NCBI RefSeq assembly: GCF_026151205.1
Contig: NC_087077.1
Location: forward strand, 5,976,483-6,040,482
Length of the DNA stretch: 64,000 nt
Origin: Bolinopsis microptera
Taxonomy: Eukaryota > Ctenophora > Tentaculata > Lobata > Bolinopsidae
Direction: 5' to 3'
In this document: positions 17,901 to 61,500 of the stretch, piece by piece
Position numbering within the stretch: position 1 is the first letter of the stretch
Layout: every line of letters starts with the position of its first letter
Program-made: the position numbers and the translations under genes
Notes under the pieces: model-generated
What the model saw: the letters and a program-made list of their open reading frames with translations, nothing else
Told to the model about the DNA's origin: nothing
Database searches by the model: none

Positions 17901-20900
17901 TTTCTGTTACGATAGTCCGGCCCTCGGAGCATACGAGACCATTTTCTCTCTTAAGAGTCTCAGCTATATTGCAGAAATAGTCATTGAAGCTATTCGCAAT
18001 TTGCTGAGAATCTGTTATCTCGCTCCCATTATAGTTAATTTTGTTTATCTTGATTTTGCCTTTTTTCTTTCTGTTTAACAAGTTATTAACCATTTGCCAT
18101 TGTTTTCTGCTGTCGCTAGAATATTTTGTAAAGTATGCGTTGTAATATTTGTTTTTGGCCTTATCCACGTGTTTATTCACAAATTTCTTCATTTTCTTGT
18201 ACCTAATATCATTTTCAGTGGTCGGGTTTGTGACAAAATCTTCATAAAATTTATTTTTGCGATCACATGCGCACCGTAACCATTCTTGGATCCACGGCTT
18301 TGTGTTTTTACGGCGGCCTGGTTTACTCTTTTTTGCCTTCATTGGGAAATTTCGGTCGTATAGTTCACTATATTTTTTCTCGAAAGCCTCAAATTTTTCA
18401 TCTGCAGAATCATAGTTATTAACCAAGTTCCAGTCTACGGCAGAAATGTCGTTCTCGAACTTTTTGATGCTGTCATCGTTTATTACTCGAGAAGATGTAT
18501 CTTCTTGAAGTTTACAACTGAGCCTATTCTGATCAACCATAATTGTGACAAAAGTTGCCAAGTGGTCAGAGATTGATTCAGAAATTACTCCCGATTTTGT
18601 AACAGCGTGGCAATTATTGACGAAAATATGGTCAATGATAGTCGCACTGTGATCTGTGACTCTAGTTGGTCTTGATATCACAGGAGCGAATCCGTGCTCT
18701 GCTAAAGTGTCCACATACTTAGTAACAGAGTCTATTCTCCCGTAATCTAGTAGGTCTATGTTAGTATCACCGGCCAGTATGATATTTTTGTTTCGATGTC
18801 TTGCTAAGTTACGGAGGAAAATTTTCAATTGTTCAAGGAAACCATTCAAGTCCCCACTTGGAGAGCGATATATATTACAGATTAACGCGTTTTTGTGCCC
18901 TTTCAAGGTAAGTTCTGCAACCAAGAATTCTCCTATCTTAGGATTATCGTGGCAACATAGAGCGCTCTTAACGTTTATGTCAGATAATTCACATAGTTTT
19001 TTGTTAACATATATGACTAATCCTCCACCACGATTTGACGCTCTAGCGGGAGTCTGAACATACGGTGGATAGAAACCGTCTAGTTCGAGCTCCTCTCCCT
19101 GAAAAGGCAAACATTCCGTGTTACAATTTGTTTCATTGAAGCAGAGAACGTCGTATTTTGTGTATTGATCTATATTCTCCCGAAATTCTTCAATTTTCCC
19201 ACTGAGTGACCTAACGTTTAGCGAGAAAACTTTCAATTCATACTCCTTCGTATTTTTGATCGCGTTCGCGGTATAATATTTGCAGTTATTTAGAAGACTA
19301 GACGTTGTTTCCCATGGATTCAAATCAGCATCAGTATCATCATGATCACCTATTTGATTTGATAGGTGGTCGCGATTAAAGGGGTTAAACCTAATAGTGT
19401 TACTGAAATTTATCATGTGAAGCTGTCTAATGGAGACATCGTATGCTGGGAAAATTTTTCTCAAGCATTCTTTGCAGCCTGTTGAGCCAGCAGAACATCT
19501 TGTGTGGGATAGGTTGTCACAGTAGCAACATTTGGTCATTTGTCTTATATTCCCAATTTTTGTGCAAGTGTGACATTTTTCTCGTTTATTGGAGACTTGG
19601 ATTTGTATAGGCCGTGATGGTGATAGAGGCATGACGGCACCCACTGGAAGAATTTCTGAAATGCAGCTGTAGCAAGACCATTCTCCAGTAAGTTCAGTTA
19701 TGTCGCTAGGTGTTAGGTGAGCACATTTTGGGTGATATGTCGTATAACAAATACTACAAGTGATGCTTACCTTGTGTGAGACTAGGCGCTTTGCACAGGC
19801 CTTACAGCTATTTTTACTACTTCGGATAACTACCATTTTTTAGCTGTAAATGATACTCTTGTTTAAATGTAGATATAGGTTTGCTACTTAATATAATATA
19901 ATAAAGTACACGGAAAACAGTCACTGAAAGTATCTACTCCAGATGAGTGAGCCAAGAAAATGGGGCCAGGGAAGAGTGAGAAAACGTGCGAGGTTTTGTG
20001 AACACTCTGTCCGGGTCCCTAACTTCAGCTTCTAACTAGAGAAATCAATTCAGTGAAGTGTTGTTCTGTGGGAATAAGTTTAAAAAGTTAATTGAAGTAT
20101 GTGAAATGTGAATGTGACTTGTATTCTGTATTTGTAACTTGTAAGTGTATGTACTTAGTGGTCTGATTACGTGGTTCAACTTAGTAAAGATAAGATTTCG
20201 ATTAGCCGTAAGCTGGTGCAGATAAGACATGGTTCGTATACTGTACGATTCTTAGTAGATTAATAATTTTGTCCAAATTTTCGTTATAGTATGTTTGCCG
20301 ATTGTATTGCTGTTCTAAGGTCTGCCCAATGAAGAAACATACTCCCGTCTTAGCGGCCAGTGTTTTCGAATTAAGTAGCTGCGCCCCATAAATTCTTTGA
20401 CACAGGTAGCAAGAGAGCGAGCTATCTCTCTCTTGGACATGACTGTTAGGTGGATTCCGTTTCCACCAGGATCTACAATGACCTCTCTTCTCTGGTATAA
20501 AACAGTACAAATATGGTGCGAGTCAAAGAACCATAGCTTGGACACTCTATTGCTTAGTTCAAAAATAAAGCTGTTAAAATGCTTAACTTCCTCATTAAGC
20601 CACGAGAAACGTGTGAGAACTAAAGAATTAAATATAAAAGTCGTGTTAGGATATTTCTCAATTAGATAATCAATATTTCTCTTAAAATCACATGAAAGGG
20701 AGTGGTGGTGGTGGTCATAGCGAGATAAATCGTTTATACCAGAAGAAATTATGACAATTTTAGAGCCAGAAATATATTGTTCGTGATCTAAAATTTTGGA
20801 TAACTGGTACATTTCGCGTTTGATGCAGTGTACGTTAGGAGGGTCAAAAGGGACATCTCTGAGAAGCGAGTCCGTCAAGAATAATAGACGCTCCTTAGGT

Positions 20901-23900
20901 TGAGACTGCTCAGTAACCGTAGGCTTATGAATCGGTTCGTGGATCCTCGGGATTTTTTTGCGATGGGGGGTATTCTGAGAGAGGCGTCTGAACGTAAGCG
21001 ATATTCTGCAGTCCTGAGTTTCTGGTTGTGGCAATATACCATGCTCCCAGAAATTCTGTGATTCACGTGTCATCACATACACACATCCATGGTCAAGTTT
21101 GTGGATCTGTTGTTTGACCGGACCGACTTTGCTACGAAATACTAGGTCTCTAGAGGCCCCAAGACTGAGTGTAATGATGTCACCAGTGACCTCATTTTCA
21201 TCATCACTGTGGAAGGGTATGTGGCACTTGCCGTTTTCATATTTGGTGATTAGACAAGTTACCTGCTCCTTATTAAACGTAGGGTCATCTAATGCATTCG
21301 AAATGTTTGTAAAAATGTGGTCAATAACGGAGTTCTGAGGATAGTTTCTGGAATGATGCACGGTCGACCCATAGCGGTAATCTGTTGCTCCAAAGTACTG
21401 TACGGATCGGGATGCGATTCTGCGGAAGTTCATGCTCTTGCAGATGTCCATCCAATTAATGTCATTAAAGTTCACACTTAGATTACATACCGGAGTAGGT
21501 AGAGCTGCGGAGGGTGGGCTAATCACTAACTGTTGTGGGGCTGGAGCAGAAGGGAGTGCGCTGTTTCCGATGCAGTCTGCGGTTGTTCTCCGAACTTCTG
21601 TCTTGTAGTCCTCTAGTGTTGTTTCTGCCTTCTCCAGCAAACCGGAAAAATGGTTCATTAATGAATCTATTTTGGCAACATCTACCGTAAACGAATTGAT
21701 AAAGTTAGCATTTTTACAATCGTTCTCCAGTTTTTGTTTCAATAGAACTTTACGTTTTGAAACCTTAGTGTTGGATTTAATCCCTAAATCAATTCCCAGT
21801 GAATTGTTGTAGGAGATTTCGTGCGCCATGTGCTCATCCTTAACGTGCTCGAACAGATCGAGGCATAGTTTAGGTGACAGGGTAGGAAGCCACTGTCCAA
21901 ATGTTATGTCTGTTTGAGTACTTATAACGCACATACCGGGTGTGGTAGGGGGTGCCAGGCAGTGTTCTGTAGAGGTAGTGGTATGGGCACCACTACCTGG
22001 CAGCCCGGAGTCCGAAGAGATGAAGTCCATATTAGGAGTTGGTTGGATGTTCATGTGTTGTAAATTTGAGTGTAAGGCAGTCTTATCAGCACCAGCCCAC
22101 AATCTATCGGCGGCTTATCAAACTATACTAGCGAGTTAAAAGCATGCGTAATACATAAAACTATTTGATGAATTAAGTAGCTACCCAGACCCTGAACACG
22201 TGACCTTAACATTTCGTATTTCATAATCAGAAGATTAAATACTGCCAATTTTGCGATTATAGCCGGGGGCTAGCCCAGGGAGGTGGCCCAAAATATTTTC
22301 CGGTTTTTTCTAAGTCCGCACCTACCATGCCACTCGATACACTATTCTGTATTCTGGACTCAAGGTTTCCCCCGGTAATGCAATCTCGGAAGGCAGGCCT
22401 CCCCTTTGCAACACGAGCTCGGAAGCGGGAGCTCTCGATACAGGAGGTACGTCTCGAGAACGACTCGGACCGAAAACTTCTAAGTTAAAATTTTTCGAAG
22501 TTTTTCTGAAAACCACTTTTTTCCACGATTCAGGCTACCCTGTTCATTATTAGCCGAAAATATTTTTCCGGTTTTTCGAAGTCCCCACCTACCCCTCGAT
22601 ACACAATTCTGGACTCGAGGTTTCCCCTGGTAATGTGATCACGGAAGGCAGGCCTCCCCTTGGCAACACGAGCTCGGAAGCGGGAGCTCTCGATACAGGA
22701 GGTACGTCTCGAGAACGACTCGGACCGAAAACTTCTAAGTTAAAATTTTTCGAAGTTTTTCTGAAAACCACTTTTTTCCACGATTCAGGCTACCCTGTTC
22801 ATTATTAGCCGAAAATATTTTTTCGGTTTTTCGAAGTCCCCACCTACCCCTCGATACACAATTCTGGACTCGATGTTTCCCCTGGTAATGTGATCACGGA
22901 AGGCAAGCCTCCCCTTTGCAACACGAGCTCGGAAGCGGGAGCTCTCGATACAGGAGGTACGTCTCGACAACGACTCGGACCGAAAACTTCTAAGTTAAAA
23001 TTTTTCGAAGTTTTTCTGAAAACCACTTTTTTCCACAATTCAGGCTACCCTGTTCATTATTAGCCGAAAATATTTTTTTGATTTTTTTTTGGTAAAAAAA
23101 AACTGAAATCCGGCAAATTTTTTTCCAGCCGGAGCCGGAACCGGAACCGGATTTTGAAGCCGGATATCCGGCCGGAACCGGATTCAGCCGGATTTCCGGT
23201 CGGTTCCTAACCCTGATCATGAGCCGGAATTATTGTTATTATGTATAATATATATATCCGGCCAAGCACCTTTCAAACTACTTACTTTAGCAGCCGGATT
23301 AGATAGGGGGCCAACGGCATAAAATTGAGAATTTAAAATAAACAGAACCCAATTTTTTACAAAATTTACTAGTAAACGGACGAAATAATTTAAATAAAAT
23401 ATTCATCTAGAATCTAAATATCATTTCGAACACCTAAAAGATAATTGTTTGCCTTTTTATCGTATTTCGACCTTCAACAATTTTACAGATCGAACACAAG
23501 CTTGTATAAATTTTGTAAAATATTGTGTTTTTCAAATATAATAATATCATAATTTTGGTACTAAACGTTTTGCCTTTCCAAGCTAAAAACAATCCAGTAA
23601 AGATGTTTCCAAAGTTTATTAAGTTTTAAATTTCGTGCATATCACTACTATTTCCAGAACATTGGACGACAAGGAAAATGTTGACACAAACAGCAATGTG
23701 ATAGTTTCTAGTGAAACAACTTTGAACTTGTGGAAGTACATTGTTCCTCCCCATCCTGGCGAGCTTGAAGAGGACAGCTTCATTGTCGATAACATGGTAT
23801 GCATTCAAGGAATTTTAACATCATTTGGATTAGTTGTTCTTCTTACATGTATAATTATTAAGGGTAGTTGGTAGTCTTATGAATTGAAGGCTCAGTTTAA

Positions 23901-26900
23901 CAACCAATGATACATTTTGCAGGCGTATAACCTAGATGGAAGCACACCAAATGATGTAGATCAAAGAGAATTCTCTGAAAAGATGGCTGAAGATCTGGCC
24001 AGCCTAAATATACTGGCTAAGGAATTGAATGTTGAGGCATCTATTACAGAAAATTCAGAATTCCCTCAAAGAATATGCGAACAATTTTCACCTATACCTG
24101 GATACATTGTTACAGAAAATAATGTCATAATGCGAAGACATTCGTCAACAAACTGCCAAAAAATGGTTGCAAATGCAGATAAGGAAGATGCAGATGGTAT
24201 CAGGAAAATGTTAAGTGCACCTCCTTCAATGACTATCATGGATGAACCAAAACAAGCACATAACGACCTGGATGCAGAGGTGGCTGCATTGACCTCAAAA
24301 AATGCTGTCGATTTCTTTGATTACATAGAGGTCGAGGAAGATCTCGTTAATGAATCGTTTTCTAAATACTTTCTTCAAGAGGATATCATAACATCTCAAG
24401 ATATACCCAATATTAACAAGGAAACAGAAGATAAGATTGATCAAATGGCCCTTCAAATGAGCAAGCCTATGGATCAATTGTTGGGATCCGATCGCGATAG
24501 TCCCATTGATAATGTTTTGTTGCAAGGTCATGGTTCAAAAAATGCATATGAATTAGAGTTCGATACTAAAAACAGTGCTCGTTACTCCCTTGGATCTCTG
24601 AACACTGTAACTTATATTGATCCAGAGAATTCTATGACTACTGAAGCTCTCCAAACTCCTGGGCATGTTGACGAAACCGAGTTTGATGTACCTAGTGACG
24701 AGGAGTCATATGATGAAGATGAGGAACTAGAAGACAATATGCCTTCTGAGCTTAAATTGAAAGAACAGATAAAATAGCATTAATGAAGATAACTCGAGTT
24801 CAGAGAAGTTTGATTATGTGTCAAGTGAAGAGGAGTTAGACACTGGCAATGTTAATTTGGAAACTGATTGTGTGTCAAGTGATGAAAACAATTTGAGCAC
24901 AGTGAACTGTGATGACGGAAATATGGCTCCAGATACTGACCATGGTGAAGTTGAGAGACATCCATCATTCAATAATAGTCTTGAAATTATGCACCATCAT
25001 TCGATTCTCGACAGGATACTTAAAGATGACTTTGCCCCTCGAAACAAATTGTCATCTCTCCCAGCTATACCCTAGAGCAACCTTGTGCTGTGGGTATAAC
25101 AAAGAAATTTCCTGTTATGATAGAAAACAAAACTGATCTATGGGTCCAGTGCAGTATATCAGTTGATGAAGTCGGAAAGATGAATGGCTTTAGTTCCCAA
25201 AACCGTCTGATAATTCCCCCCCTTGCAAAGGAGAGTTTGCCCGTATGCCTGTCTGCTAAACAAGACGGTCTGTGTCTGGGGACCGTGGAGGTGACTGTAA
25301 ATTCTGTGATAAGTGGCATGTTACATGAACAACACCATAGCTGCAAAATAACTGCCATTGCTGAGCTACCTGGCCTCAGCATGCTTCCCAAACAAATACA
25401 ATTCAACATCCAAGTAGAAAACAAAGAGGCGTCGTACGAGCTTAAAAATGCTTCAGACTATGAACTGCCTTTGAAAGTTGTGCTTCATTCTGAAGGCCTG
25501 GATGAAGTCTTCTCGCTTTCCGATCCTATGTCAAAGTACCCTACTGCTGTCTTTGCACTTATCCTACCGCCTCACCAGCTATTTGTTGGGCACATCGAGT
25601 TCTGCCCTTACGAACAATACAGCGTTTGTGAAGGTAATTAGTGGGGTTAGTGGGGATAAGTAGGATTAGTGGGGTTAGTGGGATTAGTGGGGTTAGTGGG
25701 ATTAGTGGGGTGAGTGGAATTAGTGGGATTAGTGGGGTTGGTGGAGTTGGTGGGGTTGGTGGGGTTAGTGGGGTTAGTGGGGTTAGTGGGATTAGTGGGG
25801 TTAGTGGGATTAGTGGGGATAAGTAGGATTAGTGGGGTTAGTGGAATTAGTGGGATTAGTGGGGGTTAGTGCGGTAAGTGGGGATAAGTAGGATTAGTGG
25901 GATTAGTGGGATTAGTAGGATTAGTGGGATTAGTGGGATTAGTGGGGTTAGTGGGATTAGTGGGAGTAGTGGGCTTAGTGGGCTTAGTGGGATTAGTGGG
26001 ATTAGTGGGATTAGTGGGATTAGTGGGATTAGTGGGGTTAGTGGGGTTAGTGGGATTAGGATATTGAATTATGCAGCTAAACTGAATGAAAAAGGAAAGT
26101 TATATATATATATAATGTATCATAAAGGTGATATTATGTTACGTAAAAATTAAGGGTGAAATGTGCAATTGCTATCTCGCTGGGTATCAAGTGTTGTATT
26201 ACACACAGCATATTACACAAAATGACTTACATCCCTATTTCATGAACTATACATATATATTATATCATATCATGACTCTCCTCACTTTACAGCCAGTTTG
26301 AGAGTGTACGTGGATAGTCCTAACGGCGCACTGCTAGCAGAGACTGATGTTTTGGGAACAGTTGGTCATTATAAAGTGAGGATACCCACAGACAAACACT
26401 CTCTTTCTTTCCATTCCAGCCCAGGGGACCCACTCACCACTGACATCACCTTAATTAACACAGGTATAAATATTACAATTTTAAGGTTTGAAACTTCAAA
26501 TCTTTCTTCATCATGCCGAGTATGTAACTTGTATGATGAAGACTCATCTCTTATAAACTATACCCTTCATTAACTTAATCGCTCATGGACGACTTAATAG
26601 TTATGTAATCGAAGCTGTGCAGTATGAATTCAGTTTATAAGATGTGTATGTAACGATGTAACTCTGCAGGCAACATGGCCACCACAATTACTCTCGATGT
26701 GACGCGCCCCTTTTCTGTATCTCCTCCTTTTATTGGCTCCTTGGTTCCGGGAGAGGAGGCTACCTGCCAGGTGAGCACTAGTGGGGTTAGTGGGAGAGGA
26801 GGCTACCTGCCAGGTGAGCAGTAGTGGGGTTAGTGGGAGAGGAGGCTACCTGCCAGGTGAGCACTAGTGGGGTTAGTGGGAGATGAGGCTACCTGCCAGG

Positions 26901-29900
26901 TGAGTACTAGTGGGGTTAGTGGGAGAGGAGGCTACCTGCCAGGTGAGTACTAGTGGGGTTAGTGGGAGAGGAGGCTACCTGCCAGGTGAGCACTAGTGGG
27001 GTTAGTGGGAGATGAGGCTACCTGCCAGGTGAGCACTAGTGGGGTTAGTGGGAGAGGAGGCTACCTGCCAGGTGAGCACTAGTGGGGTTAGTGGGAGAGG
27101 AGGCTACCTGCCAGGTGAGCACTAGTGGGGTTAGTGGGAGAGGAGGCTACCTGCCAGGTGAGCACTAGTGGGGTTAGTGGGAGAGGAGGCTACCTGCCAG
27201 GTGAGCACTAGTGGGGTTAGTGGGAGAGGAGGCTACCTGCCAGGTGAGCAGTAGTGGGGTTAGTGGGAGAGGAGGCTACCTGCCAGGTGAGCACTAGTGG
27301 GGTTAGTGGGAGAGGAGGCTACCTGCCAGGTGAGCACTAGTGGGGTTAGTGGGAGAGGAGGCTACCTGCCAGGTGAGCACTAGTGGGGTTAGTGGGAGAG
27401 GAGGCTACCTGCCAGGTGAGCACTAGTGGGGTTAGTGGGAGAGGAGGCTACCTGCCAGGTGAGCACTAGTGGGGTTAGTGGGAGAGGAGGCTACCTGCCA
27501 GGTGAGCACTAGTGAGGTTAGTGGGAGAGGAGGCTACCTGCCAGGTGAGCACTAGTGGGGTTAGTGGGAGAGGAGGCTACCTGCCAGGTGAGCACTAGTG
27601 GGGTTAGTGGGAGAGGAGGCTACCTGCCAGGTGAGCACTAGTGGGGTTAGTGGAAGAGGAGGCTACCTGACAGGTGAGCACTAGTGGGGTTAGTGGGAGA
27701 GGAGGCTACCTGCCAGGTGAGCACTAGTGGGGTTAGTGGGAGAGGAGGCTACCTGCCAGGTGAGCACTAGTGGGGTTAGTGGGAGATGAGGCTACCTGCC
27801 AGGTGAGCTGTAGTGGGGTTAGTGGGAGAGGAGGCTACCTGCCAGGTGAGCACTAGTGGGGTTAGTGGGAGAGGAGGCTACCTGCCAGGTGAGCACTAGT
27901 GGGGTTAGTGGGAGAGGAGGCTACCTGCCAGGTGAGCACTAGTGGGGTTAGTGGGAGAGGAGGCTACCTGCCAGGTGAGCACTAGTGGGGTTAGTGGGAG
28001 AGGAGGCTACCTGCCAGGTGAGCACTAGTGGGGTTAGTGGGAGAGGAGGCTACCTGCCAGGTGAGCACTAGTGGGGTTAGTGGGAGAGGAGGCTACCTGC
28101 CAGGTGAGCACTAGTGGGGTTAGTGGGAGAGGAGGCTACCTGCCAGGTGAGCAGTAGTGGGGTTAGTGGGAGAGGAGGCTACCTGCCAGGTGAGCACTAG
28201 TGAGGTTAGTGGGAGAGTAGGCTACCTGCCAGGTGAGCACTAGTGAGGTTAGTGGGAGAGGAGGCTACCTGCCAGGTGAGCACTAGTGAGGTTAGTGGGA
28301 GAGGAGGCTACCTGCCAGGTGAGCTGTAGTGGGGTTAGTGGGAGAGGAGGCTACCTGCCAGGTGAGCTGTAGTGGGGTTAGTGGGAGAGGAGGCTACCTG
28401 CCAGGTGAGCTGTAGTGGGGTTAGTGGGAGAGGAGGCTACCCGCCAGGTGAGCTGTAGTGGGGTTAATGGGAGAGGAGGCTACCTGCCGGGTGAGCACTA
28501 GTGGGGTTAGTGGGAGAGGAGGCTACCTGCCAGGTGAGCAGTAGTGGGGTTAGTGGGAGAGGAGGCTACCTGCCAGGTGAGCACTAGTGGGGTTAGTGGG
28601 AGAGGAGGCTACCTGCCAGGTGAGCAGTAGTGGGGTTAGTGGGAGAGGAGGCTACCTGCCAGGTGAGCAGTAGTGGGGTTAGTGGGAGAGGAGGCTACGC
28701 CAGGTGAGCACTAGTGGGGTTAGTGGGAGAGGAGGCTACCTGCCAGGTGAGCATTCCGGGAGAGGAGGCTACCTGCCAGGTGAGCACTCTCCACAACACA
28801 ATAAACTCTCGTCACTTATTCTCAGTTTGAGATGTTGGAATAACTACAACATGGGATAACATGGTCACATTTACTACTTTCTTTTTATATTTCTCCTTTT
28901 TCTTTTTTGAGAGAGGCTGGATGGCTCCCCACTGTAACACATCTAAATTGTCAGGTGTCCTATTTCCCAGTGGTAACGGAGCACGTGACTGGGCTGCTCA
29001 CCCTCAGTCTGGAGGCAGATTCTGTTGTTTACCAGGTATCAAGCCTTAAAAAATAATATTTTATTTCTTAGTAATGGACAAATTTTCAACAAAGTGCTTA
29101 AATTTGTGTTTCACTGTGAGCACTAGTTAGTGGGAGGCTACCTGTCAGGTTCCTAAATCCACAGACTGTCTGCATAACTCGGCCAATTTCAGCCTCTTAT
29201 GTTTTGTCGATAACTCGGATAATAAGCTTTTTTTGGAGATCAACTATAATAAATTTTATACAATTTTGGCCACTGAAAATGTTGTGCAAACCAATAAATA
29301 GCTGAAGGCACTTTGCGTCTTGGAAACTTATTAGGACTGTAACTATAAAATGAATATGTGATAAGTGCGCTATAGGAACCGACCTAATATTCGACTGAGT
29401 CCGCTTCCAGCCCGATATATTATGGACACGTTCATTGAAATTTGAGGATATTGGTAAATTTAAAAAATAGCGTTTTCAACGATAGTGGCTTAATTTTAGC
29501 ATCTAATAATCTAGCAAGTTCAGAAGTTTTTATAGTGTGACAATGTTAGCATCTCACTGCTGGCCGAATTTAAGCGATATCTTATCATCTGATAAAGATA
29601 TCATTATGTGACAAAGTTTACCTAGAGGATGAGACGATTATCCTAACCATGGAGGGTTTTTATAGTTTTATAGTGCGACAAATTTTACCTCATCGTGTCA
29701 TTTAATAGGGCTACTAACAATGAACGTGTGCATATATAATTATACAGTACTTCTCGATTCCTGATTGTTGATTTAGCTATTTAGGAACGTTTATTCAAAA
29801 TGTTTTGCACTACACAACTACAAGGTACCGATCGAAGGACGGAGCACAAAGAACAAATCAAACGTTGCAAATACCACGTGTCCCTATTCGCTGCTGACCA

Positions 29901-32900
29901 GTAAAAGTATTGTTAACTTTGGGGGATCTGAGATTGGTTAGTCAAATTAACAGTCTCTACTCTCTTTTACAGAATAGATTCCGCGATCAGTTCAACTTGT
30001 ACAAATAATGAATTCTAGTTTTCATAACACGCTTCGACGATACAACATACCCCAAAAAGATGAATACAGTAACCCCGATTTACCACGGAGTTTGGGGAAA
30101 GGAAACATCAGCGGTAAATCGGATTTCGCGGTAAATCGGGGTTTTGTTTGTTTACATTATGCATGTTAAGCCCTATTTGGGGGAAATGAGATGGCTGCGG
30201 TATATCGAGGTTGCAGTAAATCGGGGCGCGGTAAACACTTATACTATGCACCTTATAAATCTAATTATATAACTACCAGCCTATCATACTAAATTCATAA
30301 GAGACCCACTATGTTGCACACTTACAGTCATGTTATGGAAACATAGAGGTAGCCTAGTTCATAATTATTAAATTAGAATTATTAAACTAATTAAAATTGA
30401 CCAGGCAGACAGAAGGAAGACACTATAGTGCTACAGAACGATTCACCCACTGAGTTAATGTGTCTGGTGCTGAGAGTGATCAGTCCTAGCCGCTCATTCT
30501 ACATCCTCAACGACAACTCCATAACGTTTACACATTTCTCGTTTATTTTTATAATAGTGGATTAGTTGGTATGTTTGTAATATATATTTAAACGTAACTT
30601 TTGAATATTTAACATCACGTACTATCTGATTTGCAGGTTAAGCTGTGATATGGTGTTACCAGCAGGGACCTCTCAGACGCTCAAGTTGGGTTACACACCA
30701 CTACACAGCCAACAGCATGTGGGCGAGTTGCTCGTTAAAACCAAGAAGAATAACCTTTCCTTTAATATTTCTCTATCTGGGCACGGTGGTCTTAGTAAGG
30801 TACAGTCCCTAATTGTTATGATTTTACGTTATGATGCAACCTCAGGTGGTAATCCTAAACTAAATAAACATGATATAACTCTAACTCCTGCAGATAACTA
30901 TGATGCAACCTCAGGTGGTAATCCTAAACTAACTAAACATGATATAACTGTAACTCCTGCAGATAACTATGATGTAACCTCAGGTGGTAATCCTAAACTA
31001 ACTAAACATGATATAACTCTAACTCCTGCAGATAACTATGATGTAACCTCAGGTGTCAATCCTAAACTAACTAAACATGATATAACTCTAACTCCTGCAG
31101 ATAACTATGATGTAACCTCAGGTGGTAATCCTAAACTAACTAAACATGATATAACTCTAACTCCTGCAGATAACTATGATGTAACCTCAGGTGGTAATCC
31201 TAAACTAACTAAACATGATATAACTCTAACTCCTGTAGATAACTATGATGTAACCTCAGGTGGTAATCCTAAACTAACTAAACATGATATAACTCTAACT
31301 CCTGCAGATAACTATGATGTAACCTCAGGTGGTAATCCTAAACTAACTAAACATGATATAACTCTAACTCCTGCAGATAACTATGATGTAACCTCAGGTG
31401 TCAATCCTAAACTAACTAAACATGATATAACTCTAACTCCTGCAGATAACTATGATTTAACCTCAGGTGGTAATCCTAAACGCACAACAGAGCTCCTCCC
31501 GTCTCTGGGTAGACATGGGAGACATCTGCCCAAACACTCGCAACACCGCGCGTATCACCCTTAACAACACCGGCTCCAGGGCAGCCTTCGTATCAGGAGT
31601 TCTAGAAGACGAGGAGGGGTACCCCTTACCCTCCACTCTGGCCTGGATCAACCCCACCACTTTTGTGATCCCAGATAACACTACACGTGAATTGTACGTG
31701 ATCTACGAGGCAGGGGCTGATAAAGAGGCGGGAGTGAGCAGGATAGCTCTCCTCAAGTTGTACTGTGGTGACGAGATCTCCAGGAGGAGGTTCTGCAACG
31801 TTCTCAACATTCTTGACAGGTATTTTACTTTTACAAAATTAAGTTACCTAAGGTTTATCGGGAGGGGGGGTGGACTGATTTGTTAACAAGGGTCGAATGT
31901 GTCCATCATAAATCATAATAATGCTCTATGCTTCAGGCCGGTGGAAGATCAGGACCTCCCGTTTGACCCTGCTGTGGAGTACCTGACACCAGGTGAAATG
32001 AAGAGAGAGGGTGAGCTGAAAGTACCTCATCTCATGCAGGCCGATATGGCCTTGGAGAGAAAGCTCTTCGGAAGTGGACTATATCAACTCTTTATCAGGT
32101 TAGCTAATTTGGTTACGCCTGGGGGCAAAATGGAAGAATTTACCTGCTTACAAGTATATCCATCTGTTCCTACATCCCTCCTGTTCCTACATCCCTCCTG
32201 TTCCTACATCCCTCCTGTTCCTACATCCCTCCTGTTCCTACATCTTTCCTGTACCTACATCCCTCCCGTTCCTACATCCCTCCTGTTCCTACATATCTCC
32301 TGTTCCTACATCCCTCCTGTTCCTACATCCCTCCTGTTCCTACATTCCTCCTGTTGCTACATCCCGCCTATTCCTACATCACTCCTGTTCCTACATCCCT
32401 CCCGTTCCTACATCCCTCCTGTTTTTACATCCCTCATGTTCCTACATCCTCCTGTTCCTACATCTTTCCTGTACCTACATCCCTCCCGTTCCTACATCCC
32501 TCCTGTTCCTACATATCTCCTGTTCCTACATCCCGCCCTCCTGTTCCTACATCCCTCCTGTTCCTACATCCCTCCTGTTGCTACATCCCTCCTATTCCTA
32601 CATCACTCCTGTTCCTACATCCCTCCCGTTCCTACATCCCTCCTGTTTTTACATCCCTCATGTTCCTACATCCCTCCTGTACCTACATCCTTCCCGTTCC
32701 TACATCCCTCCTGTTCCTACATCCCTTCCGTTCCTACATCCCTCCTGTTCCTACATCCCTCCTGTTCCTACATCCCCCTGTTCCTATATCCCTTCTGTTC
32801 CTACATCCCTCCTGTTCCTACATCGCTCCTGTTCCTACATCCCTCCTGCTCCTACATCCCTCCTGTTCCTACATCCCTCCTGTTCCTACATCTATCCTGT

Positions 32901-46583: not shown

Positions 46584-49500
46584 GTAAGCTACTAGTGAAC
46601 CTAGTGAACCTAATGAAGCTAGTGAACCTAGTGATACTAGTGAACCTAATGAACCTAGTGATCCTAGTGAACCTAATGATCCTAGTGAAGCTAGTGATCC
46701 TAGTGAACCTAGTGATCCTAGTGAACCTAGTGATCCTAGTGAACCTAGTGATCCTAGTGAACCTTGTGATCCTAGTGAAGCTAGTGAACCTAGTTATCCT
46801 AGTGAACCTAGCGATCCTAGTGATCCTAGTGATCCTAGTGATCCTAGTAAACCTAGTGGGGGGGGTCAAAAGTCAGTGCACATACGTTGGCCTTTGTAAG
46901 CTCAGTCACTGAGTGCCGGATTGAGGTATAGTAATTCTTTCTGGTATGACTTACTATCACCACTCATTCGAGGAATATGTCAAATCAACAAAATTTGTTG
47001 TTATTTAATATTCATGTTTTAATTGTTTTCAAATAAAGGTTCATTATCGCATTTATTTGATAGTTCTGATAATTTTTTAATTGGATTGTGTTTGGAATTC
47101 GAATTAAATTTACCCTAAAAAATGAAAGTTTGTCAGATGACTGAGATATGAAGCATAATTAGAATTTTAATTAGAATTAGAATCAAATTTACACAGCCAG
47201 CAATATAATAAAAATACCATACGGTAACAAGGTTATTCATTACGTGTGATCAGGTGATTGGGTTGGCACTATGGGAATCCTGCAGAGAGCCCAATTACGG
47301 TGTCGTAGCACGCAATCACATGATTTCCCAATCAATTTTGCTAACGAGATAAACAAATTGCTTGATAACTTCGTCATTTTGAATCCATTTGGCGCCATAT
47401 CTTCAGATCAAACCTAGATTTAATTACCTATTGGCTATTGCAATATTTTACAATGAATTTTCTAGCATGTTCACAAACACGAGTATATGCAATTCAATGT
47501 TTGATTGGGCGTGGCCTCTAAAAACCGAATTTTCAAATTTTGGCGACAGAATCCTCGAATGAGTACTGATTAGGCCCTGTATTATAATAGTGCACCTACT
47601 GAACATTAATCTCTTGTTTTTCAGATGGCGTTTATCTTTGTGTTCAACCTGCTTCTTGGAGCAGGTGCTCTAGCGCTTCCTGCAGCATTTGCTGACGCGG
47701 GCTGGCTTGTAAGCACTGTTCTTCTCGTTATTCTGTGCTTTGCGAGGTTTGTCTACTGTGAACTTATGAAGGGATGGCTATCTCTTTAATCTTCTCAGTT
47801 TCGTTTCAGCCTCGTTCATGTGTGAATGGATGGCTATCTCTTTAATCTTTTCAGTTTCGTGTCAGCCTCGTTCATGTGTGAAGGGATGGCTATCGCTAAC
47901 GTGCTCCAGAACGTGGCCTGTCCTAAGAAAAACGACAATGTGACAGAAACAGAACAGTTATTGGCTGGAAGCGCTAATGTGAGTATACTTTCTCTTATTC
48001 GTACATAATATATACAGGGGGGGGGGGGGGGCAAAAGTTAGTGCACATAAATTGGGTCTTATACCACCGCCGTGTTTTATATTTGAGACTTGATGCTTTG
48101 CAGATGACATGCTGTTATGCTGTACCTACTCATTCGAGGATTTTGTCGCCAAAATTTGATAATTCGGTTTTTAGGGGCCACACACAATCAACATTGAATT
48201 GCTTATACTCGTGTTTGCGAACATGCTAGAAAATTCATTGTAACATATTGCAATAGGTAATAAAATCCGGGATTTGATTACCTATAATTGATCTGAAAAG
48301 ATGGCGCCAAATGGATTAAAAATGACGAAGTTATCAAGCAATTTGTTAATCTCCGTTAATCTCGTTAATCTCATTAGCAAAATTGATTGGGTAATCATTT
48401 GATAGGTTGCTCCGACACCGTACATGGGCTCTCGGCACGATTCTCATAGTAGTATAGTGCCAGTGCCCAGTTCCCAATCACCTGATCACACGTAATGAAT
48501 AACCTCGTTATGCTTCATATCTCGGTCATCTGAGAAGCTAGAACTCTAGAATTTTTTTCAGGGAAAAAGTTATTTGAATGGCCAAACACAATTCTATACA
48601 ATTTGGCTCGATCCGATTGTTAAAACTATCAAATAAATGCGAAAATGAACCTTCATTCAAAAAAATGAACATGAATATTCTTTGAGTTGACATATTCCTC
48701 GAATGAGTGGTGATAGAAAGTCATACCAGAAAGAGTTATTTCAATCGGGCACTCAGTGACTGAGCTATAAATGCCAACGTATGTACACTGACTTTTGCCC
48801 CCCCCCCCCCCCCCCCCCTTCTATTATAGTAGCTTCAATGTCAAGATACTTAGATAATTTCAACTAATTTTTAAAAGGTTTAAATTGTTGTGAAATAAAA
48901 AAATATGCCACTTACCTTATCGGACCTTATTTGGACGGACATTAATTGAACAAATATTGATATGTTTATAATGAGGAATTTAAATCAATACAGTAAAACC
49001 CTACGCCACGATTTAACACAAACCACGATTTACCGCGGCCATATCATTCCCCCAAATAAGTATTTACACTCACAGACATAATTTCGGCACTTTTCGACGC
49101 TTTTTAAACGCATTTTTACACCTTTTTGGCGCTTTTGACATCTCTTTGACTTGGACTACTATACTATATATAGTAACTGTAGTAAATGTAGTAACTGTAG
49201 TAACTGTAGTAACTGTAGTAACTGTAGTAACTGTAGTAACTATAGTAATTATAGTAGCTGTAGTAACTATAGTAACTATAGTAACTATAGTAACTATAGT
49301 AACTATAGTAACTGTAGTAACTGTAGAAACTATGGTAACTGTAGTAACTATAATAGTAACTGTAGTAACTATGGTAACTATATAGTAAATATAACCTATG
49401 CTCTGGATCAGGGTCTACAATTGCTTAAGTACGAGTTTTCGGACTACGAGTCTGATTCGGTAAGATCCTGCTGAGCTCAATCCTGCTCCATCGCTGTGTT

Positions 49501-52500: not shown

Positions 52501-55500
52501 AGCAGCAAACTTTAGGCTAGAAACTTTATTGAATTGAAATAATCATTCCACGTAACAACGTCTTCTTCAGTTCTCAAATTATTTGTTATATAGTAGTGTT
52601 GAAAGTATTAAAACTGGTATAATATTGTTAAGGTAAAAGGTCAAACGTATTTGTGAAGCATCAAACAAGTACTATTTGACACTACTTGAAAATCTAATTT
52701 CAGTTGGTGTGGTGTTGTTTTATGTGGCAGTTATAATATACCTCTACGGGGATCTCGCTATTTACACAGTCGCAGTGCCTAAATCCCTTGCTAATGTCAG
52801 CTGGTGAGTACAGTTGCAGTGCCTAAATCCCTTGCTAATGTCAGCTGGTGAGTACAGTTGCAGTGCCTAAATATATTGCTAATGTCAGCTGGTGAGTACA
52901 GTTGCAGTGCCTAAATATCTTACTAATGTCAGCTGGTGAGTACAGTTGCAGTGCCTAAATCCCTTGCTAATGTCAGCTGGTGAGTACAGTTGCAGTGCCT
53001 AAATCCCTTGCTAATGTCAGCTGGTGAGTACAGTTGCAGTGCCTAAATCCCTTGCTAATGTCAGCTGGTGAGTACAGTTGCAGTGCCTAAATATCTTACT
53101 AATGTCAGCTGGTGAGTACCGTTGCAGTGCTTAAATATCTTGCTAATGTCAGCTGGTGAGTACAGTTGCAGTGCCTAAATCCCTTGCTAATGTCAGCTGG
53201 TGAGTACAGTTGCAGTGCTTAAATATCTTCCTAATGTCAGCTGGTGAGTACAGTTGCAGTGCCTAAATCCCTTGCTAATGTCAGCTGGTGAGTACAGTTG
53301 CAGTGCCTAAATATATTGCTAATGTCAGCTGGTGAGTACAGTTGCAGTGCCTAAATCCCTTGCTAATGTCAGCTGGTGAGTACAGTTGCAGTGCCTAAAT
53401 ATCTTGCTAATGTCAGCTGGTGAGTACAGTTGCAGTGCCTAAATATCTTGCTTATGTCAGCTGGTGAGTACAGTTGCAGTGCCTAAATCCCTTGCTAATG
53501 TCAGCTGGTGAGTACAGTTGCAGTGCTTAAATCCCTTGCTAATGTCAGCTGGTGAGTACAGTTGCAGTGCTTAAATATCTTCCTAATGTCAGCTGGTGAG
53601 TACAGTTGCAGTGCCTAAATCCCTTGCTAATGTCAGCTGGTGAGTACAGTTGCAGTGCCTAAATATCTTGCTAATGTCAGCTGGTGAGTACAGTTGCAGT
53701 GCCTAAATCCCTTGCTAATGTCAGCTGGTGAGTACAGTTGCAGTGCCTAAATCCCTTGCTAATGTCAGCTGGTGAGTACAGTTGCAGTGCCTAAATATAT
53801 TGCTAATGTCAGCTGGTGAGTACAGTTGCAGTGCTTAAATATCTTCCTAATGTCAGCTGGTGAGTACAGTTGCAGTGCCTAAATATCTTGCTAATGTCAG
53901 CTGGTGAGTACAGTTGCAGTGCCTAAATATCTTGCTAATGTCAGCTGGTGAGTACAGTTGCAGTGCTTAAATATCTTCCTAATGTCAGCTGGTGAGTACA
54001 GTTGCAGTGCCTAAATCCCTTGCTAATGTCAGCTGGTGAGTACAGTTGCAGTGCCTAAATCCCTTGCTAATGTCAGCTGGTGAGTACAGTTGCAGTGCCT
54101 AAATATCTTGCTAATGTCAGCTGGTGAGTACAGTTGCAGTGCTTAAATATCTTCCTAATGTCAGCTGGTGAGTACAGTTGCAGTGCCTAAATCCCTTGCT
54201 ATGTCAGCTGGTGAGTACAGTTGCAGTGCCTAAATCCCTTGCTAATGTCAGCTGGTGAGTACAGTTGCAGTGCCTAAATCCCTTGCTAATGTCAGCTGGT
54301 GAGTACAGTTGCAGTGCCTAAATATCTTACTAATGTCAGCTGGTGAGTACAGTTGCAGTGCCTAAATCCCTTGCTAATGTCAGCTGGTGAGTACAGTTGC
54401 AGTGCTTAAATATCTTCCTAATGTCAGCTGGTGAGTACAGTTGCAGTGCCTAAATCCCTTGCTAATGTCAGCTGGTGAGTACAGTTGCAGTGCCTAAATC
54501 CCTTGCTAATGTCAGCTGGTGAGTACAGTTGCAGTGCCTAAATCCCTTGCTAATGTCAGCTGGTGAGTACAGTTGCAGTGCCTAAATATCTTACTAATGT
54601 CAGCTGGTGAGTACAGTTGCAGTGCCTAAATCCCTTGCTAATGTCAGCTGGTGAGTACAGTTGCAGTGCCTAAATCCCTTGCTAATGTCAGCTGGTGAGT
54701 ACAGTTGCAGTGCCTAAATCCCTTGCTAATGTCAGCTGGTGAGTACAGTTGCAGTGCCTAAATCCCTTGCTAATGTCAGCTGGTGAGTACAGTTGCAGTG
54801 CCTAAATCCCTTGCTAATGTCAGCTGGTGAGTACAGTTGCAGTGCCTAAATCCCTTGCTAATGTCAGCTGGTGAGTACAGTTGCAGTGCCTAAATCCCTT
54901 GCTAATGTCAGCTGGTGAGTACAGTTGCAGTGCCTAAATCCCTTGCTAATGTCAGCTGGTGAGTACCGTTGCAGTGCCTAAATCCCTTGCTAATGTCAGC
55001 TGGTGAGTACAGTTGCAGTGCCTAAATCCCTTGCTAATGTCAGCTGGTGAGTACAGTTGCAGTGCCTAAATCCCTTGCTAATGTCAGCTGGTGAGTACAG
55101 TTGCAGTGCCTAAATATATTGCTAATGTCAGCTGGTGAGTACAGTTGCAGTGCCTAAATATCTTACTAATGTCAGCTGGTGAGTACAGTTGCAGTGCCTA
55201 AATATCTTCCTAATGTCAGCTGGTGAGTACAGTTGCAGTGCCTAAATCCCTTGCTAATGTCAGCTGGTGAGTACAGTTGCAGTGCCTAAATCCCTTGCTA
55301 ATGTCAGCTGGTGAGTACAGTTGCAGTGCCTAAATCCCTTGCTAATGTCAGCTGGTGAGTACAGTTGCAGTGCCTAAATCCCTTGCTAATGTCAGCTGGT
55401 GAGTACAGTTGCAGTGCCTAAATATCTTGCTAATGTCAGCTGGTGAGTACAGTTGCAGTGCCTAAATATCTTCCTAATGTCAGCTGGTGATTACAGTTGC

Positions 55501-58500
55501 AGTGCCTAAATATCTTGCTTATGTCAGCTGGTGAGTACAGTTGCAGTGCCTAAATATATTGCTAATGTCAGCTGGTGAGTACAGTTGCAGTGCCTAAATA
55601 TCTTCCTAATGTCAGCTGGTGAGTACAGTTGCAGTGCCTAAATATAGCGCTAATGTCAGCTGGTGAGTACAGTTGCAGTGCCTAAATCCCTTGCTAATGT
55701 CAGCTGGTGAGTACAGTTGCAGTGCCTAAATATATTGCTAATGTCAGCTGGTGAGTACAGTTGCAGTGCCTAAATATCTTCCTAATGTCAGCTGGTGAGT
55801 ACAGTTGCAGTGCCTAAATATAGCGCTAATGTCAGCTGGTGAGTACAGTTGCAGTGCCTAAATATCTTGCTAATGTCAGCTGGTGAGTACAGTTGCAGTG
55901 CCTAAATCCCTTGCTAATGTCAGCTGGTGAGTACCGTTGCAGTGCCTAAATCCCTTGCTAATGTCAGCTGGTGAGTACAGTTGCAGTGCCTCAATCCCTT
56001 GCTAATGTCAGCTGGTGAGTACAGTTGCAGTGCCTAAATCCCTTGCTAATGTCAGCTGGTGAGTACAGTTGCAGTGCCTAAATCCCTTGCTAATGTCAGC
56101 TGGTGAGTACAGTTGCAGTGCCTAAATATATTGCTAATGTCAGCTGGTGAGTACAGTTGCAGTGCCTAAATATCTTCCTAATGTCAGCTGGTGAGTACAG
56201 TTGCAGTGCCTAAATCCCTTGCTAATGTCAGCTGGTGAGTACAGTTGCAGTGCCTAAATCCCTTGCTAATGTCAGCTGGTGAGTACAGTTGCAGTGCCTC
56301 AATCCCTTGCTAATGTCAGCTGGTGAGTACAGTTGCAGTGCCTAAATCCCTTGCTAATGTCAGCTGGTGAGTACCGTTGCAGTGCCTAAATCCCTTGCTA
56401 ATGTCAGCTGGTGAGTACCGTTGCAGTGCCTAAATCCCTTGCTAATGTCAGCTGGTGAGTACAGTTGCAGTGCCTCAATCCCTTGCTAATGTCAGCTGGT
56501 GAGTACAGTTGCAGTGCCTAAATCCCTTGCTAATGTCAGCTGGTGAGTACAGTTGCAGTGCCTAAATCCCTTGCTAATGTCAGCTGGTGAGTACAGTTGC
56601 AGTGCCTCAATCCCTTGCTAATGTCAGCTGGTGAGTACCGTTGCAGTGCCTAAATCCCTTGCTAATGTCAGCTGGTGAGTACAGTTGCAGTGCCTCAATC
56701 CCTTGCTAATGTCAGCTGGTGAGTACAGTTGCAGTGCCTAAATCCCTTGCTAATGTCAGCTGGTGAGTACAGTTGCAGTGCCTCAATCCCTTGCTAATGT
56801 CAGCTGGTGAGTACCGTTGCAGTGCCTAAATCCCTTGCTAATGTCAGCTGGTGAGTACAGTTGCAGTGCCTAAATATATTGCTAATGTCAGCTGGTGAGT
56901 ACAGTTGCAGTGCCTAAATATCTTACTAATGTCAGCTGGTGAGTACAGTTGCAGTGCCTAAATCCCTTGCTAATGTCAGCTGGTGAGTACAGTTGCAGTG
57001 CCTCAATCCCTTGCTAATGTCAGCTGGTGAGTACAGTTGCAGTGCCTAAATCCCTTGCTAATGTCAGCTGGTGAGTACAGTTGCAGTGCCTAAATCCCTT
57101 GCTAATGTCAGCTGGTGAGTACAGTTGCAGTGCCTCAATCCCTTGCTAATGTCAGCTGGTGAGTACAGTTGCAGTGCCTAAATCCCTTGCTAATGTCAGC
57201 TGGTGAGTACAGTTGCAGTGCCTCAATCCCTTGCTAATGTCAGCTGGTGAGTACAGTTGCAGTGCCTAAATCCCTTGCTAATGTCAGCTGGTGAGTACAG
57301 TTGCAGTGCCTAAATCCCTTGCTAATGTCAGCTGGTGAGTACCGTTGCAGTGCCTAAATCCCTTGCTAATGTCAGCTGGTGAGTACAGTTGCAGTGCCTA
57401 AATATCTTCCTAATGTCAGCTGGTGAGTACAGTTGCAGTGCCTAAATCCCTTGCTAATGTCAGCTGGTGAGTACAGTTGCAGTGCCTAAATCCCTTCCTA
57501 ATGTCAGCTGGTGAGTACAGTTGCAGTGCCTAAATCCCTTGCTAATGTCAGCTGGTGAGTACAGTTGCAGTGCCTAAATCCCTTGCTAATGTCAGCTGGT
57601 GAGTACAGTTGCAGTGCCTAAATCCCTTGCTAATGTCAGCTGGTGAGTACAGTTGCAGTGCCTAAATCCCTTGCTAATGTCAGCTGGTGAGTACAGTTGC
57701 AGTGCCTAAATATCTTCCTAATGTCAGCTGGTGAGTACAGTTGCAGTGCCTAAATCCCTTGCTAATGTCAGCTGGTGAGTACAGTTGCAGTGCCTAAATA
57801 TATTGCTAATGTCAGCTGGTGAGTACAGTTGCAGTGCCTAAATATCTTCCTAATGTCAGCTGGTGAGTACAGTTGCAGTGCCTAAATATATTGCTAATGT
57901 CAGCTGGTGAGTACAGTTGCAGTGCCTAAATCCCTTGCTAATGTCAGCTGGTGAGTACAGTTGCAGTGCCTAAATATCTTGCTAATTTCAGCTGGTGAGT
58001 ACAGTTGCAGTGCCTAAATATCTTCCTAATGTCAGCTGGTGAGTACAGTTGCAGTGCCTAAATATATTGCTAATGTCAGCTGGTGAGTACAGTTGCAGTG
58101 CCTAAATATATTGCTAATGTCAGCTGGTGAGTACAGTTGCAGTGCCTAAATATCTTCCTAATGTCAGCTGGTGAGTACAGTTGCAGTGCCTAAATATCTT
58201 GCTAATGTCAGCTGGTGAGTACAGTTGCAGTGCCTAAATATCTTGCTAATGTCAGCTGGTGAGTACAGTTGCAGTGCCTAAATATATTGCTAATGTCAGC
58301 TGGTGAGTACAGTTGCAGTGCCTAAATATCTTCCTAATGTCAGCTAGTGAGTACAGTTGCAGTGCCTAAATCCCTTGCTAATGTCAGCTGATGAATACAG
58401 TTGCAGTGCCTAAATATATTGCTAATGTCAGCTGGTGAGTACAGTTGCAGTGCCTAAATATCTTCCTAATGTCAGCTGGTGAGTACAGTTGCAGTGCCTA

Positions 58501-61500
58501 AATCCCTTGCTAATGTCAGCTGGTGAGTACAGTTGCAGTGCCTAAATCCCTTGCTAATGTCAGCTGGTGAGTACAGTTGCAGTGCCTAAATATCTTCCTA
58601 ATGTCAGCTGGTGAGTACAGTTGCAGTGCCTAAATCCTTTGCTAATGTCAGCTGGTGAGTACAGTTGCAGTGCCTAAATATATTGCTAATGTCAGCTGGT
58701 GAGTACAGTTGCAGTGCCTAAATATCTTACTAATGTCAGCTGGTGAGTACAGTTGCAGTGCCTAAATCCCTTGCTAATGTCAGCTGGTGAGTACAGTTGC
58801 AGTGCCTAAATCCCTTGCTAATGTCAGCTGGTGAGTACAGTTGCAGTGCCTAAATCCCTTGCTAATGTCAGCTGGTGAGTACCGTTGCAGTGCCTAAATC
58901 CCTTGCTAATGTCAGCTGGTGAGTACAGTTGCAGTGCCTAAATATCTTCCTAATGTCAGCTGGTGAGTACAGTTGCAGTGCCTAAATCCCTTGCTAATGT
59001 CAGCTGGTGAGTACCGTTGCAGTGCCTAAATATATTGCTAATGTCAGCTGGTGAGTACAGTTGCAGTGCCTAAATATCTTACTAATGTCAGCTGGTGAGT
59101 ACAGTTGCAGTGCCTAAATATCTTCCTAATGTCAGCTGGTGAGTACAGTTGCAGTGCCTAAATATATTGCTAATGTCAGCTGGTGAGTACAGTTGCAGTG
59201 CCTAAATATATTGCTAATGTCAGCTGGTGAGTACAGTTGCAGTGCCTAAATATATTGCTAATGTCAGCTGGTGAGTACAGTTGCAGTGCCTAAATATCTT
59301 CCTAATGTCAGCTGGTGAGTACAGTTGCAGTGCCTAAATATATTGCTAATGTCAGCTGGTGAGTACAGTTGCAGTGCCTAAATATATTGCTAATGTCAGC
59401 TGGTGAGTACAGTTGCAGTGCCTAAATATCTTGCTAATGTCAGCTGGTGAGTACAGTTGCAGTGCCTAAATCCCTTGCTAATGTCAGCTGGTGAGTACAG
59501 TTGCAGTGCCTAAATCCCTTGCTAATGTCAGCTGGTGAGTACCGTTGCAGTGCCTAAATCCCTTGCTAATGTCAGCTGGTGAGTACAGTTGCAGTGCCTA
59601 AATATCTTGCTTATGTCAGCTGGTGAGTACAGTTGCAGTGCTTAAATATCTTCCTAATGTCAGCTGGTGAGTACAGTTGCAGTGCCTAAATATAGCGCTA
59701 ATGTCAGCTGGTGAGTGCGGCTTCGTTTAAACCAAAGAAAGTCTAGATCGAACATTTTAGTAGTAAAATGTAGTGTGAATATTACCAATTTGTCTCTATT
59801 TATCTAAACCGTGTTGTTTGCAGTATACCAGATCTCCGTGATGAACACAATGTTACGCTATGTTGGAACGGAGTCTCCCACGACGCAGCCTACAGAATAT
59901 TTGTTGTAAGTTAGTGCTCCCTACTAAACATTGCAACGTTGTAAGTTAGTGCTCCCTACTTAACACTGCAACGTTGTAAGTTAGTGCTGCCTACTAAACA
60001 CTGCAACGTTGTAAGTTAGTGCTCCCTACTAAACACTGCAACGTTGTAAGTTAGTGCTCCCTACTAAACACTGCAACGTTGTAAGTTAGTGCTCCCTACT
60101 AAACATTGCAACGTTTTAAGTTAGTGCTCCCTACTTAACACTGCAACGTTGTAAGTTAGTGCTCCCTACTAAACATTGCAACGTTGTAAGTTAGTGCTCC
60201 CTACTTAACACTGCAACGTTGTAAGTTAGTGCTCCCTACTAAACATTGCAACGTTGTAAGTTAGTGCTCCCTACTAAACTCTGCAACGTTGTAAGTTAGT
60301 GCTCCCTACTAAACACAGCAACGTTGTAAGTTAGTGCTCCCTACTAAACACTGCAACGTTGTAAGTTAGTGCTCCCTACTAAATGGAAAAATTAAGGCAC
60401 TAATGCCAAAAAGGCTACTGTTTTGTTTACCAATATCCTCAAATTCAAATAGACATGTTCATATTATAGTAGTGGTAAAAGTATAACAAATAGTTGTACA
60501 AATATGCTATTCCGATTTAATATGCCTTCAGTACTTTTTTATTTACGTTGATTTTAATTTCAGCTTATCTATGTCTTGTGTATAGGCCCCTTTGTGTTTT
60601 TCAACGCTCAAAAAACGACACTTCTGCAGATTTTTAGCTCTATCCTCAGACACACATGTAAGTAAATAGCCTACAAATACTAATACTATCAAAGCCCAGA
60701 TAGCAATTAATTATTTGCTTTAAAGCTTTAACACATCTATTAATTTTGATTAATTTGACTTATTTTGAACGCAAATAACCGCAGCATTCTTCATTATGGT
60801 AGTTATCGCCATTGACCGCATCATGAAACACAAACACGGTGTCCCAAAACCACAAGATGTAAAACCAGTCATCTTCGACAAAATACCAGATTTCATAGGT
60901 TTGTCATTTCTCATGTTGGATATTTTAAGAAATTGAAAGTCTTTTCAAATATAACGCACACAATGCGATTTAGACAATTAAACGACCTCTAAATATCTTT
61001 TATGTACAGGGGGGGGGGGGGGGGGGCCAAAAGTCAGTGTGCAAACGTTGGGTCTTTTACATCCGCCGTGTTTTATATTTAAGATTTTTTGCTTTGCAGA
61101 TGGAATTATGTACTTACTTGTTCGAGGATTCCGTGGCAAAAATTTTAAAATTCGGATATTTTAGACCACGCCCATTCAATATTAAAACGTCTTTATTGTT
61201 CTCTCTGAACAGGCTGGACAGTGGACACCTATTGTTTTCAGAGACGGTAGATTATTAAGTGTTGCATCTGATCTGAAAAAATGAGGCAACACAGATTAGA
61301 AATGATGAAGTTATCAAACTTTTGTGTATCTCGTTACTAAAGTTGACTGGGTTATTATGTGACACCGTGACACGACACCTTAATTGGGCACCCTCAACAA
61401 TTCCCGTAATGTTTAACGGGGTGGTTAACGGGGTCACCTAATCACGTGATTAGGTAAACCAATCACTTTGTGGATATTGAAATAGATTTCAAATTAATCT

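Follow-up and report, generated by a model that had tools for sequence, protein, structure and literature searches.

Minisatellite-like repeats that run across exon/intron boundaries are known from amphioxus, where such "mirages" were described in the Adh, globin and troponin C genes, with similar duplications in PGBD5, and where they reportedly leave splicing undisturbed (PMC3087553, PMC3902484). A related route, intron gain by tandem genomic duplication, makes intron out of duplicated exon sequence and the splice signal duplicated with it (PMC4974935, PMC2891723). For ctenophores, one paper puts tandem repeats at 13% of the Hormiphora genome (PMC8527503), and a search of open-access literature, ctenophore papers included, gave no report of boundary minisatellites or of intronic tandem repeats in this group. 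Here we describe a 64,000-nt stretch of the genome of the ctenophore Bolinopsis microptera (NC_087077.1, positions 5,976,483 to 6,040,482, forward strand; hereafter the window, whose coordinates we use) in which one intron of a TMEM104-like gene opens with a tandem array whose unit is the end of the preceding exon together with its 5' splice site, or donor.

The kind of array is already known from amphioxus (PMC3087553, PMC3902484). As in the mirages, the tandem unit holds an exon end and a splice signal, the copies carry that signal with them, the boundary copy escapes homogenisation, here at the 5' end only, and the unit, at 44 bp, is of similar size (10-72 bp in Adh, 150-160 bp in globin). 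The host, in contrast, is a ctenophore and not a cephalochordate, the array runs to 158 units over 7 kb where one globin gene has 6 and 3 units in its two haplotypes, and tandem donor motifs strongly exceed tandem acceptor motifs genome-wide, whereas the globin paper shows repeats at both boundaries. A glutamate receptor from this genome has as its best PDB match ML032222a, a protein of the ctenophore Mnemiopsis, in a good alignment that is far from identity, and amphioxus is an unlikely host; mitochondrial COX1 had no match in the assembly. The Bolinopsis locus also shares with intron gain by tandem duplication the conversion of duplicated exon sequence and its splice signal into intron, but here the intron has its own acceptor downstream and the 5' boundary alone is amplified. 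With ordinary intronic minisatellites it has in common the 44-bp tandem units and the local spread of some unit types; unlike them, it begins inside an exon and repeats the boundary in every unit.

Anatomy of the 44-bp array and its host intron

Tandem Repeats Finder (TRF) reports a single array at 52766-59716 on the plus strand, with 158.0 copies, 95% matches and a period of 44, which lies within the minisatellite range of head-to-tail units of about 10-100 bp. Cut at the donor, the array falls into 158 head-to-tail units of 21 types, 157 of them 44 bp long and one 43 bp. Unit 1 consists of the final 38 nt of the 100-nt TMEM104-like exon at 52704-52803 (plus strand) followed by GTGAGT, so that the count comprises one exonic and 157 intronic units. 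The initial annotation had read the unit as the last 38 bp of the exon, with one C-to-T change, plus GTGAGT, had counted about 158 near-identical donors in a row, and had concluded that what has been amplified is the splice junction; all three statements are borne out by the unit split, as CTG/GTGAGT (the slash marks the junction) is complete in 155 of the 158 units and every unit repeats the boundary. On donor and acceptor score tables that are approximate metazoan frequencies, the full donor scores 10.4 and the three imperfect ones 6.9, 6.7 and -4.6, the last belonging to a unit without GT. An acceptor-like CAG, scoring 2-6, stands 3 nt upstream of each donor in the array; scores of 2.8-9.6 were obtained for five real acceptors of this gene.

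The first donor (52804-52809, plus strand) opens a phase-2 intron of 7020 nt (52804-59823) and is alone among the eight donors tested in keeping the reading frame, which continues from the exon across the junction. Downstream of the array the intron has a body and an acceptor of its own: the last donor copy, the remaining intron and the acceptor TTTGCAG (score 6.4) together occupy 113 nt at 59711-59823 (plus strand), which is the length that a single-donor version of the intron would have. The following exon, 82 nt at 59824-59905 on the same strand, carries the frame on past the phase-2 junction. When several exons are joined, the resulting protein matches Pfam Aa_trans (E 1.7e-20), and from its residue pattern, which is that of TMEM104, we call the gene TMEM104-like.

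The units themselves record a separation between exon and intron. At unit position 6 the exon copy has C and all 157 intronic copies have T, a synonymous difference (GTC/GTT, Val), so the exon copy has stood outside homogenisation since that change. This exclusion of a boundary copy holds at the 5' end only, as the type of the last unit recurs twice within the array. The nine units of type F are limited to units 74-102, a tightness reached in none of 5000 random placements, and type C clusters mildly (P 0.008), whereas five of the eight commonest types (B, D, E, G and H) show no clustering at P 0.05, the unit-space autocorrelation of 0.28 stays below the 95% shuffle limit of 0.287, giving no significant periodicity in unit order, and no block of at least four unit types is repeated in that order. 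The earlier statement that unit variants recur in blocks consequently stands for type F and, mildly, for type C, and fails for the unclustered types and for the order of the array as a whole. Private changes are few, with four changes in three units at the donor and three in the rest of the unit, and no variant common to several units lies in the unit's last 16 nt. The commonest unit occurs 64 times in the assembly, always on contig C6, and no second haplotype was found.

Donor choice and a proposed origin

The exon at 52704-52803 ends two bases into a codon, and a retained unit opens with G TGA, completing a Trp codon that is followed at once by a stop. Donors 2-8, which are those tested, all terminate at one and the same codon, and the same stop is expected for the donors beyond 8 because with each of them the first intronic unit would be kept in the RNA. 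The initial annotation had pointed out that 132 nt are added in phase with each third donor; the arithmetic is correct, but it has no effect at donors 2-8 of this phase-2 intron, where translation meets TGG TGA, and frame-preserving isoforms from these donors are rejected. Its companion statement, that first-donor use must be enforced somehow if the transcripts are not to be very heterogeneous, is right in that the first donor has to dominate for the protein to be made. We take the first donor to be most likely the site in use, since it is the only route to protein, since tandem donor motifs far exceed tandem acceptor motifs, and since amphioxus reportedly behaves in this way. Read-through at eight other array-bearing donors meets a stop within four codons at five of them and later, at codons 10 and 18, in two more; at the eighth, locus L036, no stop appears in the stretch examined.

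We propose that a tandem duplication across the exon's 5' splice boundary was tolerated because the first donor stayed in use, so that copies accumulated as intron, and we regard this account as probably correct. The minisatellite would have been born from a tandem duplication over that boundary, after which the first copy would remain joined to the exon with its donor used, while the further copies, wholly intronic, would be free to expand and to homogenise one another with the exon copy outside the exchange. The simplest cause of first-donor choice would be exon definition combined with the order of transcription, donor 1 both closing a 100-nt exon and being made first. Splicing that slipped to one of the later donors would run into TGG TGA and give a truncated RNA, probably one that is degraded. 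An excess of tandem donor over tandem acceptor motifs is what one would expect if splicing takes the outermost 5' donor, but goes to the wrong, upstream copy where an acceptor has been duplicated. The locus is a natural experiment on how 5' splice sites are chosen, with 155 identical donors in one intron and a built-in stop-codon read-out of errors, and through the asymmetry between donors and acceptors exon definition and intron lengthening could be tested.

Tandem donors across the genome and the competing explanations

An annotation-free motif test over the whole assembly (264.65 Mb, 232 contigs) finds 2643 pairs of AGGTRAGT 5-35 nt apart against 279 pairs of the reversed motif, a 9.5-fold difference in pair counts that score long arrays many times over; for single sites the figures are 19232 and 15615 (1.23-fold). 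Clusters of the donor motif occupy eight places within the first 3.54 Mb of contig C1, whereas clusters of the reversed motif occupy nine places over the whole of C1 (26.2 Mb) plus the first 13.5 Mb of C2, and this control is conservative because several of the reversed clusters themselves hold GTGAGT. The acceptor motif TTTTCAG forms 1544 pairs against 735 when reversed, 2.1-fold in counts that carry no single-site normalisation, and small tandems account for about five of the roughly 100 places listed, while the others look isolated.

We read the 5' flanks of 11 donor clusters on C1, the eight in the first 3.54 Mb and three further ones. At five of the 11 (L036, L037, L041, L042 and L048) the unit spans an apparent coding exon end and its donor; L050 is probably at an exon end as well, L035, L038 and L049 are not, and L039 and L040 are ambiguous. 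A home-made gene finder, trained on 2116 codons of window exons, places an exon end at the first donor for three of these loci (L037, L041 and L042), whereas at L036, where it ran into the array, and at L048, where it called no exon, the exon end rests on an open frame, sushi-like, read by eye. The sushi assignment falls below the Pfam cut-off at L036 (E 0.025) and at L037 (E 0.0025) and was made by eye at L048. These three loci (C1:400000-434700) present three sushi-like exons, each with a boundary array of its own and each array with a different unit, and they may belong to one gene, all being inside 35 kb. Four arrays were read from among the nine reversed-motif places, and none of the four has an exon end at its start, with the qualification that L045 lies inside a predicted open exon and that L047 was read short of the array start. 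The L041 unit was read by eye, TRF giving a period of 24 there, and the L041 exon matches Pfam AAA_9 below the cut-off (E 0.014); we take it to be dynein-heavy-chain-like.

Three side observations belong to these loci. Immediately before its boundary array, the L041 exon contains a 171-bp duplication (L041:460-786; 1.9 copies, 100% match). L035 and L038 are one 32-bp donor-bearing array present at two C1 places 0.7 Mb apart with no evident exon, and thus a dispersed minisatellite. At L018:7625-7943 (C6, minus strand) a 20-bp array of 15.9 copies sets a polypyrimidine tract and CAG directly before GTAAA, acceptor-like and donor-like signals back to back.

Gene models give a more restrained picture. 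The gene finder was run on 264 kb around the window and on five myosin loci located by Pfam; the 286 introns called were reduced to 177 by exon quality and to 168 by a length filter, and these, less one and with 12 hand-read window introns added, gave the 179 used, 155 of them outside the window. Counting arrays of at least 1.9 copies and a period of at least 6 that span the intron start or begin no more than 9 nt inside it, we find 13 of 115 arrays at intron starts, where intron lengths would lead one to expect 3.8 (P 5e-5), and outside the window 8 of 100 against 2.7 (P 0.003). The donor excess is firm by the motif test and modest by the gene-model test. A genome-wide survey of arrays at donors had been named at the outset as a way to refute the special character of the 44-bp array; by the motif test such arrays lie far above chance and by the gene-model count above it, but for arrays of at least three copies outside the window the gene-model excess is not significant.

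Several results weigh against the account that we prefer. The window, which was picked for its array, contributes five of the 13 donor arrays, and for arrays of at least three copies outside it the counts at donors, 2-3 against 1.1-1.8 expected (at the upper end 3 of 52 against 1.8), show no significant excess. Array ends at acceptors are in excess too (8 of 115 against 3.8 expected, P 0.024); base-level repeat cover across the 168 introns is 3% at donors against 10% over the introns as a whole, with no donor peak; and in 70 local array consensuses the donor motif is barely above its reversal (Wilcoxon P 0.08). The gene finder also shows visible false exons within arrays. Finally, the score range of the acceptor-like CAG in each unit overlaps that of the real acceptors, so that splicing within the array is possible.

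One rival explanation is that ordinary intronic minisatellites of a repeat-rich genome sometimes begin at a donor by chance, with no preference for such sites. Tandem repeats make up about 10% of the bases in the 168 introns and arrays of at least four copies about 11% of the 264 kb, and among arrays of at least three copies beyond the window the number at donors is not significantly raised. Chance of this kind sits poorly, however, with the gap between paired and single donor motifs, with an acceptor-pair excess of only 2.1-fold, and with the five of 11 donor arrays elsewhere that stand on apparent exon ends, and we consider it unlikely without dismissing it. A bolder reading, that minisatellites of this ctenophore lineage arise by preference at 5' splice boundaries because a process tied to donors provokes local re-copying, is one we hold only tentatively and on balance doubt; candidate triggers would be the retention of nascent RNA where the exon ends, R-loop formation or polymerase pausing. 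If it were true, exon ends would be repeatedly amplified into introns, introns would lengthen from the donor side, and the tolerance of thousands of exact decoy donors would mean that this animal's spliceosome follows a rule of choosing the outermost donor.

Selection for the donors themselves, as a field of binding sites by which U1 small nuclear ribonucleoprotein guards against early polyadenylation or as a boost to transcription, would explain why they are so well kept and why no multi-unit variant touches the last 16 nt of the unit. Private changes nevertheless strike the donor, recent homogenisation also predicts intact donors, and the array-free intron, at 113 nt, would have no need of protection; we judge such selection improbable. 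The use of several donors or of array-internal acceptors, yielding mixed transcripts or stepwise (recursive) splicing, draws on the equal donor scores and on the CAG before each donor, but an exon internal to the unit would be 3 nt long and the intron between adjacent units 41 nt, which for an animal is very short. Donors 2-8, the later ones tested, stop at once, and amphioxus arrays reportedly leave splicing undisturbed (PMC3087553, PMC3902484), which makes this alternative highly improbable. That the assembly has inflated the copy number, or has collapsed another locus into this one, is scarcely credible: copy number is indeed hard to assemble in such arrays and no second haplotype was found, but the 21 unit types stand in irregular order, one of them limited to units 74-102, and unrelated arrays show the same anatomy.

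Our preferred account, of duplications tolerated behind a first donor that stays in use, would extend beyond one gene. Treating the array as the property of a single locus, as the initial annotation did, is accurate for its anatomy and incomplete otherwise, since donor-spanning arrays also occur in the next TMEM104-like intron and in a CEP192 intron, and donor-motif tandems are enriched genome-wide. Further such loci across the genome suggest that boundary minisatellites are present on a large scale in animals remote from amphioxus.

Other boundary arrays and repeats in the window

Besides the 44-bp array, the window has two further arrays across donors, two that begin just inside an intron, by 3 and 8 nt, and one across an acceptor. 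All five lie on the plus strand and were located by TRF. The next TMEM104-like intron has a 35-bp array of 13.7 copies (59903-60383) that starts 3 nt before the donor GTT/GTAAGT of the exon at 59824-59905, and plain read-through there reaches a stop at the third codon. In CEP192, assigned by Pfam on the exons neighbouring the array, a 43-bp array of 46.7 copies (26749-28753) has as its unit 22 nt of exon end plus GTGAGCACTAGTGGGGTTAGT. The two arrays just inside introns both have a 9-bp unit: one of 46.6 copies (25637-26059) from 3 nt inside a CEP192 intron after GAAG/GTA, and one of 29.7 copies (46592-46858) from 8 nt inside an early TMEM104-like intron after CCG/GTAAGC, a donor that belongs to the exon preceding the one at 47625. 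The acceptor case is a 56-bp array of 2.3 copies in the TMEM104-like gene (47767-47894), lying across the acceptor CTTTTCAG/TTTCGTGTC and the exon start; its upstream copies too end in TTCTCAG or TTTTCAG, and use of an upstream acceptor is possible. At the window arrays beginning at 1804, 5408, 41471 and 49171 no exon was seen at the array start, and an Rfam scan of the window gave no match at gathering scores.

A 69-bp array (30830-31481) starts 30 nt into its intron, away from the boundary, and almost fills this CEP192 intron; its units are branch-point-like, mostly carry an acceptor-like CTGCAG and are open in one frame. Upstream, at 24760-25075, the CEP192 frame shifts twice with no evident intron, through sequencing errors or damage. 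At 16234-22114 the window also holds an element resembling a long interspersed nuclear element, with a PHD finger, an endonuclease and a reverse transcriptase, which adjoins an open reading frame with a 2OG-Fe(II) oxygenase domain.

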